The position numbers and the translations under genes are program-made. This document shows positions 6,262 through 31,166 of a DNA stretch of 64,000 bases, in pieces. The notes below the pieces were generated by a model that saw nothing but the letters and a program-made list of their open reading frames with translations, had not been told where the DNA came from and did not search any database. Location: the NCBI RefSeq assembly GCF_000702545.1, contig NZ_JNIO01000008.1, forward strand, positions 1,364,001 through 1,428,000, in the 5' to 3' direction. The number at the start of each line of letters is the position of its first letter. Position 1 is the stretch's first letter. Source of the DNA: Selenomonas sp. AB3002. Lineage in GTDB: Bacteria > Bacillota > Negativicutes > Selenomonadales > Selenomonadaceae.

Positions 6262-7767
6262 TCAGTCGCGTCCCAGCTGGTCACGCTTAATGACGTCATG
6301 GGCGCCGCCCTCCACGATGGAGGTAGCAGACACCAGGGTCAGACGGGCCTTCTCCCGGAATTCGGGCAGGGAGAGGGAACCGCAGTTGCACATGGTGGAA
6401 CGGATCTTGGCGGTAGTGGTCATGACATTGTCCTTGAGAGTACCAGCATAGGGCACATAGGAATCTACGCCCTCCTCGAAGGAAAGCTTCTTGGCGCCGC
6501 CCAAATCATAGCGCTGCCAGTTGCGGGCGCGGTTGGAGCCTTCGCCCCAGTACTCCTTGTAGTAGTTGCCGTTGAGCTTGATCTTGGCCGTGGGGCTCTC
6601 GTCAAAGCGGGAGAAGTAGCGGCCCAACATCAGGAAGTCAGCACCCATGGCCAGTGCCAGAGTCATGTGGTAATCGTGGACGATACCGCCGTCAGAGCAG
6701 ACAGGAATGTAGACGCCAGTCTCCTCGTAGTATTCGTCACGGGCCTTGCAGACATCGATAAGAGCCGTAGCCTGGCCGCGGCCAATGCCCTTAGTCTCGC
6801 GGGTGATGCAGATGGAACCGCCGCCGATGCCCACTTTGATGAAGTCTGCGCCAGCCTCAGCCAGGAAGCGGAAACCATCAGCATCCACTACGTTGCCTGC
6901 ACCCACCTTCACATCCTCACCGAAGTTCTCGTGGATGTACTTAAGGGTGATGCGCTGCCACTCGGAGAAGCCCTCAGAGGAGTCAATGCAGAGCACATCT
7001 GCACCAGCCTTCAGCAGGGCCGGCACGCGCTCGGCATAATCACGGGTGTTGATGCCTGCGCCCACAATATAGCGCTTGTCCTTGTCCAACAGCTCGAACT
7101 TGTTTTCCTTGCTGTCGGTGTAGTCCTTGCGGAATACCATGTAGCGGAGGCGCTGCTCTTTGTCCACCAGAGGCAGCATATTCAGCTTGTGCTCCCAGAT
7201 GAGGTCGTTAGCCTGGGAAAGAGTGGTGGTATCAGCATCAGCGCAAATCAGCTTCTCGAAGGGGGTCATGAAGGTACCAGCCTGAGTATCAAGGCTCATG
7301 CGGCTGATGCGGTAGTCACGGCTGGTGACAATGCCCAGCAGCTTGCCATTAGAGGTTCCGTCCTCGGTGACGGCCATGGTAGAGTGACGGGTCTTTTCAA
7401 GGAGAGCCAGGATTTCGCCCAGGGTGGTGGTGGTCTTGATATTGGAATCAGAGCTTACAAAGCCGGACTTGTAGCTCTTGACCCTTGCCACCATAGCCGC
7501 CTCTTCCTCAATGGTCTGGGAACCATAGATGAAGGAAACGCCACCCTCCTTGGCCAGGGCAATGGCCATGGTGTCATTGGACACGGACTGCATGATGGCA
7601 GACGTCATGGGGATGTTCATGGAGAGCTTGGGTTCCTCGCCTTTTTTGAACTTCACCAGCGGCGTGCGGAGGGACACATTCGCCGGGATGCACTGCTCAG
7701 ACGAATAGCCCGGTACCAAAAGATACTCCCCGAACGTATGTGATGGTTCCTTGAAATAGAATGCCAA
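6262..7767 (-). CDS. guaB: IMP dehydrogenase with CBS pair
   Basis: 501 residues from a TTG at 7765-7767 (GAAGG about seven bases upstream; the open frame reaches further but without a credible start). It oxidises IMP to XMP with NAD, the committed step to GMP. The catalytic loop appears as '[20 protein letters not shown]', containing the Cys that attacks IMP. The CBS pair lies at about 105-220 ('[13 protein letters not shown]', '[14 protein letters not shown]'), and substrate-binding 'PVCSDGGIV' and 'FLMLGRYFS' follow. The sequence departs from the E. coli type and is slightly longer; I still call IMPDH rather than GMP reductase because of the CBS insert and the flap 'NCGSLSL' region. Its own promoter lies at 7853-7882. 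Confidence 0.9.
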
Positions 7768-7852
7768 CGTAACCCCTTCTTTCTTTAGACTTGGAAAATA
7801 TATTTTCAAAAGCTTAACACAGGCACTGCCCCCTGTCAATTCCCGAGGGCAA

Positions 7853-7882
7853 ATTATAGGTTACATGTTTACACTTTCACAA
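7853..7882 (-). promoter_or_regulatory. Predicted promoter of guaB
   Basis: On the minus strand TTGTGA (7877-7882), 18-base spacer, perfect TATAAT (7853-7858). It lies downstream of the terminator of the RNA at 7934-8143, so guaB does not need read-through from that RNA. Confidence 0.6.
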
Positions 7883-7933
7883 AGAAATAATTACAAATAA
7901 TGGCAAGCAAAAGGCCATTTTCTGTATTTCCAT

Positions 7934-8143
7934 AAGAAAACCGGCAAGCCTTACGGGTGCGTCCACCTGACCGGCTGCCGGCCTCTTCAATATGCTATTT
8001 TCCGTTCTCATATCTGCCATTGGGATCGTTTTACGGGCCCATCGGACGTCCCCCTCCTTTGCGCTCCAGTCTACCAATCCACGGCAAGAGCTCCGCTTCC
8101 CTTCGGCTAGCATTACCATTCCCGGGAGGCTGCACCCCTCTTT
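7934..8143 (-). ncRNA. Structured small RNA candidate of unknown class, about 210 nt
   Basis: No plausible gene covers this GC-rich stretch, yet it is built like a transcription unit. A consensus promoter sits just upstream (8150-8178), and a terminator hairpin pairs 7941-7946 with 7976-7981, inner arms included, followed by TTTTCTT. In between are a hairpin with stem 8063-8066/8088-8091 plus 8071-8075/8083-8087, another at 8021-8041 (UGGG and CGU arms), and a possible 6-bp long-range helix (8108-8113 with 7992-7997). The 5' part has GCCGAAGGGAAGC, reminiscent of known riboswitch cores, but I could not fit TPP, lysine, SAM, cobalamin, purine, tmRNA, SRP or RNase P. A 6S-like or new RNA is possible. 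Confidence 0.5.
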
Positions 8144-8149
8144 TTACAT

Positions 8150-8178
8150 ATACTACCAGAAATCAGCCAGAATGTCAA
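8150..8178 (-). promoter_or_regulatory. Strong promoter of the small RNA
   Basis: Minus strand TTGACA (8173-8178), exactly 17 bases, TAGTAT (8150-8155). This is the best sigma-70-type promoter in the first 10 kb and points at no protein start. Confidence 0.7.
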
Positions 8179-30960: not shown

Positions 30961-31002
30961 TGTCTGGTTGCACCTCCTTCTTTTTTTATTATTAAAGCCT
31001 GT

Positions 31003-31032
31003 AAAAAACCTCCGGCTGACACCAGCCGGAGG
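31003..31032 (-). terminator. Attenuator between rplA and rplJ
   Basis: Perfect 9-bp stem CCTCCGGCT/AGCCGGAGG followed by TTTTTT on the minus strand, about 40 bases before the rplJ start and just after the L10 leader. It probably limits rplJL transcription in response to the leader. Confidence 0.85.
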
Positions 31033-31052
31033 CATAATTTTCAAATTCATGT

Positions 31053-31166
31053 GCTCCGGCCTCGGCAGGCGGCTTGCGCCGTTAGATGATGGAATCAAAC
31101 CTGCTGTCTACAGCCATCGATATACAGTTGTCAGGGTGCCATAAGGCGCCCCTGAGGCCGGAGCCT
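31053..31166 (-). promoter_or_regulatory. L10 leader (uL10-bL12 autoregulatory RNA)
   Basis: Closing helix of 11 bp (31154-31164 with 31053-31063), and on the minus strand the conserved 'AGACAGCAGG' and 'CTGCCGAGG' blocks of the L10 leader. In known systems the L10-L12 complex binds this RNA and reduces expression. Position between rplA and rplJ is as expected. Confidence 0.85.

Follow-up and report, generated by a model that had tools for sequence, protein, structure and literature searches.

Three-codon upstream open reading frames (uORFs) are reportedly described by Dar et al. (2016), and mini-ORFs can act by peptidyl-tRNA drop-off. In the vmlR leader of Bacillus subtilis, as described in the available passages of PMC9226507, a 219-nt RNA carries the three-codon uORF MIN in a hairpin before an intrinsic terminator. 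There a stalled ribosome favours an antiterminator, which constitutes ribosome-mediated transcription attenuation, and the uORF variants MDN, MDK and MRK also work (PMC9226507, in part). In the axe-txe toxin-antitoxin operon, according to the accessible parts of PMC8708949, a translated two-codon mini-ORF is used for regulation. GC-IGR searches gave uORF motifs, for example uORFC-6-1, mostly upstream of hflX, and the Selenomonadales and Veillonella motifs in the accessible parts of PMC8632094 are named for other genes: gltD, ldh2, ilvD and potE. The Met-Gly RNA motif presented here is undescribed in the passages of PMC8632094 that were available (12 of 25 places), and guaB and DUF362 are absent from its main text. 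A literature search, largely of papers outside subscription and including the accessible parts of PMC9226507, PMC8632094, PMC6429828 and PMC8708949, returned no description of the family, and a term search in PMC12121999 gave no match.

The window, the whole 64,000-nt stretch of Selenomonas sp. AB3002 DNA analysed here, carries on its minus strand the structured RNA with its promoter and terminator; a tRNA-Pro gene and guaB flank the unit (Table 1). An earlier note on this DNA had proposed a free-standing RNA beside guaB, with no strand given, and the sequence signals support a separate transcription unit: the promoter it had named was recovered, the two terminators it had placed before that promoter correspond to terminator-like hairpins, and promoter-like sites belonging to guaB itself were found, in line with its claim of a separate guaB promoter. 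Seven promoter-like sites were found in the 3 kb scanned versus 2.3 in shuffles, and at 71 of 74 loci the best upstream site reaches 8/12 or more, a count made without a shuffled control. The strong terminator of the note is present in the fold of the RNA, but the terminator scanner did not list it; the terminator search chose the homologous hairpin in four own-genus relatives (L003-L006), and in the window copy it scored a different hairpin further downstream (from ~7929) higher than 7983-7934. The ~210 nt described as hairpin-forming do fold, at -78.9 kcal/mol; however, for the window copy alone z is -2.18 and 6 of 200 shuffles were equally good, so that single-sequence folding is modest evidence only. 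Just 5' of the -35 element (window ~8190-8184, minus strand) stands a box, such as TCTGAAAA or GTCTAAA, which recurs by eye in many copies and is a possible UP element or regulator site. Elsewhere in the window, at 30994-31131 on the minus strand, lies a ribosomal protein L10 leader (RF00557, 49.4 bits).

Table 1 Features of the RNA locus and its surroundings (window positions).
Feature	Position	Strand	Details and basis
tRNA-Pro gene	8352-8279	-	named by ARAGORN; hairpin 8263-8237 directly after
Two terminator-like hairpins preceding the promoter	8263-8237 and 8229-8209	-	terminator scan
Promoter	8150..8178	-	-35 TTGACA 8178-8173, 17 nt, -10 TAGTAT 8155-8150; matches 10/12
Whole RNA, ~210 nt	7934..8143	-	start inferred from promoter; fold and homologues
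5' stem-loop P1	8086..8142	-	apical GGUAAURGCUAGCC (8117-8105) conserved in guaB-linked type
Shine-Dalgarno AAAGGAGG	8053..8060	-	10 nt before AUG in window copy; within conserved core
ORF1	8031..8042	-	ATG GGC CCG TAA, Met-Gly-Pro-stop
P3 hairpin	8021..8041	-	UGGG 8041-8038 pairs with CCCA 8024-8021 around codon 3 and stop
Second reading frame (ORF2 position)	7877..8011	-	44 codons; no stop before terminator in window copy
UAGCAU	7992..7997	-	complementary to AUGCUA in P1 loop; possible pseudoknot
Intrinsic terminator	7934..7983 (about)	-	predicted from fold of window RNA
guaB promoter-like site	7882-7853	-	TTGTGA-18-TATAAT, promoter scan
guaB promoter-like site	7839-7811	-	TTGACA-17-TAAGCT, read by eye
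guaB (IMP dehydrogenase)	6262..7839	-	IMPDH by Pfam; true start probably TTG near 7767, by eye

At gathering score the RNA has no match in Rfam 15, either in the window or in 36 homologous or candidate loci, where the search gave only tRNA, rRNA and L10-leader matches away from it. At E<=5 the RNA yielded a single weak match, to RybB (E 3.9), aligned to the 3' part with the terminator, and a presumed resemblance to RNase P sequences was returned by none of the searches. The genome's 6S RNA (RF00013) was located by a 56.9-bit covariance-model match at C8:1887060-1887233, and the same model gave no match at the guaB-side locus; RNase P, tmRNA and SRP RNA were likewise each found elsewhere in the genome, which rules out these identities. 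The suggestion that the RNA is 6S-like fails because 6S RNA is located elsewhere. The two are alike in size and in being free-standing units, but 6S RNA is of the promoter-mimic type whereas the conserved core of the guaB-side RNA resembles a translation start. The SLH motif, which occurs in Negativicutes and Synergistaceae, was considered, the comparison being confined to the lack of an Rfam match for the guaB-side RNA, and a CsrA sponge was considered on account of GGA motifs in the RNA. The other proposal of the note, a lineage-specific new RNA, agrees with a conserved family in Selenomonadaceae that has no Rfam 15 counterpart.

On the sequence evidence the RNA is a genuine family of the Selenomonadaceae, occurring in 11 genera among those searched. 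Among 189 family genomes, own genome counted, blastn found it in 9, profile R1 (sequence-only, built from nine copies) in 37 at E<=0.01, and profile R2 (a 38-nt core built from 28 cores, most with TAA) in 63 at E<=0.05, some chance hits included. R1 gave eight matches in 398 phylum genomes, six from the own family and two chance-like. At E<=0.01, R2 matched 69 of 380 class genomes, eight of them outside the family, and its weakest matches include coding sequence; four of the weakest R2 matches (G142:C1:1788389, G034:C29:18587, G159:C12:201518 and G161:C14:68006) were left unfetched. An exact pattern scan of genome contigs produced 19 matches; the Selenomonas group or uncultured relatives account for 12, with Selenomonas ruminantium, S. 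ruminis, Mitsuokella multacida and M. jalaludinii among the species. A Synergistaceae match from the scan (L046) reads ATG GGT AGG TAG and was set aside, there being no recognisable RNA unit around it. Phage and plasmid collections (blastn) and viral contigs (exact patterns) contained no match to the RNA. The window's genome carries two copies, the second at C2:581912-581938, and most positive genomes have one or two, with changing neighbours. Core modules also occur in tandem: G126 has three, and three g27 genomes have two apiece (L036/L080; L034, L035, L070), each module having a Shine-Dalgarno-like site, AUG-GGN and a stop. In family f141, L130 (reverse complement, ~870-1600) and L145 (~540-1100) hold larger candidate RNAs of ~600-700 nt by eye, each with two UCCRAUGGG modules, one of which in L145 reads ATG GGC TAG, and with a third, related GAGUCCAAAAUAC motif before the terminator; Rfam gave no match at these RNAs.

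The verdict that the locus has no credible reading frame was fair for long frames, those of 80, 102 and 70 aa across it being judged not credible as proteins, but it misses a conserved mini-ORF. The commonest form of the most conserved stretch, AAGGAGGnGAGUCC(G/A)AUGGGC, combines a Shine-Dalgarno sequence with AUG-GGN. Of 79 cores, drawn from 56 genomes and 11 genera, 76 carry an in-frame stop as their third or fourth codon, giving the conserved short uORF with Shine-Dalgarno sequence that marks a vmlR-type attenuator. The stop falls at codon 4 (Met-Gly-X-stop) in 63 cores and at codon 3 (Met-Gly-stop) in 13, versus stops in 4/79 and 5/79 when these positions are read in the +1 and +2 frames. 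The stops comprise TAA (49), TAG (14) and TGA (13), the glycine codons GGC (63), GGT (8), GGA (6) and GGG (2), and the third codons are of 11 kinds. Because the frame is preserved even though the glycine codon, codon 3 and the type and position of the stop all change, the sequence itself reveals selection for translating a near-minimal ORF. Among potA-linked g1 copies, two stop at codon 4, ATG GGC CAC TAA (L069, L071), and three one codon earlier, ATG GGC TAG followed by TCA (L074, L113) or TTA (L112). The three exceptions are L037 (stop at codon 7), L126 (codon 6) and L128, in which a small duplication places ATG GGC AGG TAA just downstream.

The 79 cores omit the weak R1 matches L043 and L044, which have no early stop, and 12 weak-hit loci (L127, L130, L133, L140, L142, L144-L149 and L151), two of which, L127 and L145, read ATG GGC TAG while the other ten lack a stop at codon 3 or 4; five further copies outside the 79 keep ORF1. 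Since R2 was built mostly from TAA-bearing cores, its matches are biased towards ORF1; nevertheless a scan of genome contigs with no condition after GGG agrees, a stop being present in 12 of 12 Selenomonas-group matches versus 1 of 7 others. The core counts overstate significance because related genomes are not independent, and the argument for a translated ORF1 rests on its variety across genera and paralogues.

The start of ORF1 is enclosed in the P3 hairpin. A P3-type helix occurs in 63 of 79 cores versus 23.7 expected from shuffling of the 22 downstream nt, with arms such as AUGGG/CCCAU, UGGGCU/AGUCCA and UGGGA/UCCCA; that of the window copy is exactly at the threshold of 4 pairs. The mini-ORF thus lies in a hairpin with terminator-like hairpins downstream, which is the uORF-in-hairpin arrangement before an intrinsic terminator. 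A second AUG, usually 30-41 nt after that of ORF1, opens ORF2; in 54 of 64 copies, versus 15.1 expected from dinucleotide shuffles, its stop falls at the 5' foot of the terminator stem. This count covers 64 of the 74 loci, ten g6 loci being left out, and terminators were placed manually in L002, L038, L118, L119 and L122, the window copy among these five. ORF2 is 7-16 codons long from the first fitting AUG, and its peptides differ widely (METTKQNSDD, MKIEYLNIN, MDNQTESK, MEKITKHRK, MSEVNNDCVW), so that ribosome transit rather than the peptide seems to matter. The ten copies without a stop at the terminator are L010, L037, L067, L126, L137 and five own-genus guaB-type copies, namely the window copy and four relatives, where the frame runs on through the terminator. 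When a ribosome on the ORF2 stop was modelled as shielding the RNA up to 12 nt beyond that stop's first base, the median terminator energy went from -23.0 to -2.5 kcal/mol over 51 loci, loci without a fitting ORF2 being left out and L119 being scored on the wrong terminator; on paper, a ribosome on ORF2 could occlude the terminator.

The window copy is of the guaB-linked type, which is seen in genera g1 and g22. A second type is found in more genera and often has the exact 11-nt terminator loop UGACGAGAAAG, and in genus g6 the RNA is longer, its terminator lying ~300 nt beyond the core. Covariance, which the earlier note had named as a check, was found in P1, where 11 of 14 predicted pairs show compensatory changes among 16 g22 guaB-type relatives, the window copy excluded; the consensus that RNAalifold derived from the first nine homologues was implausible, with both-side changes in 6 of 27 pairs. 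Pairing between the P1 loop and UAGCAU amounts to 6-7 bp in five own-genus guaB-type copies and is weak in the 16 g22 copies. The UGACGAGAAAG loop is exact in many terminators whose stems differ (for example L112 940-950, minus strand) and looks like a binding site or contact. The 15-mer GGTGACGAGAAAGCC has 43 matches in 41 of 189 genomes, 42 of them within ~400 nt of an R2 match and one (G036) not, and the loop was therefore rejected as a general genomic repeat.

Among the genes that follow on the same strand are guaB and genes for a DUF362 iron-sulphur protein, an ABC-transporter ATPase, MFS and OPT transporters and a saccharopine dehydrogenase; Pfam named one example of every kind. The DUF362 gene starts ~42-140 nt past the terminator in g2, g8, g22 and g28 loci; its assignment was made by Pfam on L066 and by identical N-terminal sequence in the other loci. 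The guaB link survives different upstream neighbours in the g22 genomes examined, is interrupted in L010 and is broken within the own genus in L006. The gene that follows L010, L033, L038, L118 and L119 runs on the opposite strand, so that these copies stand free and attenuation of a neighbour cannot explain them. A crude ORF caller gave an opposite-strand ORF as the nearest one downstream at 16 of 74 loci, of which these five are clear by size and distance and some others are spurious, such as an ORF antisense to guaB in L002. A gene that could be regulated thus follows in the DUF362, ABC, MFS and OPT contexts and not in these five loci, and guaB has its own promoter-like sites.

The ORF1 frame, the P3 hairpin, ORF2 and the terminator are conserved by sequence comparison. 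Together they suggest an RNA worked by ribosomes rather than by a metabolite, and we read it, with confidence evenly balanced, as a ribosome-operated regulatory RNA of the leader or attenuator type. A ribosome landing on ORF1, whose start codon lies within P3, would open that hairpin, and by initiating, stalling or leaving quickly it would change how the RNA folds and how accessible ORF2 is. A ribosome at the ORF2 stop would then cover the 5' arm of the terminator and RNA polymerase would read through; with no ribosome there, the ~210-nt RNA would be released. The likely input is the state of the ribosome (initiation, stalling, drugs), because the peptides are too variable to act as the signal. 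ORF1, ORF2, the modelled terminator occlusion, P3, the DUF362 linkage and the vmlR precedent count for this reading. Against it count the opposite-strand neighbours, a low copy number with changing neighbours, which is unusual for a cis element, the ORF2 stop missing in 10 of 64 copies, and an antiterminator helix that is hypothetical in this family. As its ORF2 stop is missing and guaB has promoter-like sites, the window copy would either serve guaB as a distal, attenuated promoter or be a free-standing version unlinked to it.

The same strong initiation site leading into a dead-end mini-ORF could instead bind, sample or idle ribosomes in trans, as a translational counterpart of 6S RNA. This is a tentative contender that we lean against: the five free-standing copies all keep ORF1 and four keep the ORF2 stop, promoters are good, copies mostly number one or two per positive genome amid changing neighbours, and modules occur in tandem in the three g27 genomes and G126, but the RNA is kept close beside DUF362 in several genera and is patchy, with R2 matches in a third of family genomes even at the permissive threshold. 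A mixed history, in which a free-standing class senses or sequesters ribosomes in trans, as 6S does RNA polymerase, and cis copies evolved beside genes, seems rather doubtful. A purely structural RNA, binding a protein or acting as a riboswitch with an unknown ligand, would make the AUG and stop by-products of conserved nucleotides; the support for P1 and P3 and the invariant 11-nt loop on differing stems would suit it, but the kept frame amid variable glycine codons, third codons and stops makes it unlikely. More improbable again is a two- or three-codon minigene acting via mRNA stability or peptidyl-tRNA drop-off. The two-codon Met-Gly-stop cores resemble the axe-txe minigene, which acts in cis, possibly via mRNA stability, in the accessible parts of PMC8708949, but most cores have three codons and the RNA has its own promoter and terminator. 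That the RNA is 6S RNA or another known housekeeping RNA is scarcely credible: its length and free-standing unit would fit, but all four such RNAs lie elsewhere and nothing beyond the terminator-like RybB was matched.

Selected ORFs of two to three codons are hard to prove, and here the selection is readable from sequence. The family offers a testable system in which a ribosome on a dead-end ORF is maybe used as a signal, in a host family of rumen and gut bacteria for which the literature search found little RNA work. It also warns against labelling such loci "non-coding".

The GC-IGR uORF motifs are like this RNA in being structured leaders with uORFs that came from a comparative search (PMC8632094, in part). 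The axe-txe minigene is part of an operon, as far as the accessible parts of PMC8708949 describe it, whereas the Selenomonas RNA is a family with its own promoter, structure and terminator. The vmlR leader is the closest worked-out case in the available passages of PMC9226507. Unlike vmlR, the Selenomonas RNA belongs to another lineage, its ORF1 starts Met-Gly, it usually has a second ORF ending at the terminator and several copies have no downstream gene, and the antiterminator and antibiotic response are seen in vmlR alone, as described in those passages. The two are alike in a three-codon uORF with a Shine-Dalgarno sequence, set in a hairpin before an intrinsic terminator (PMC9226507, in part). 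The RNA family appears to be new, and its principle has precedents.
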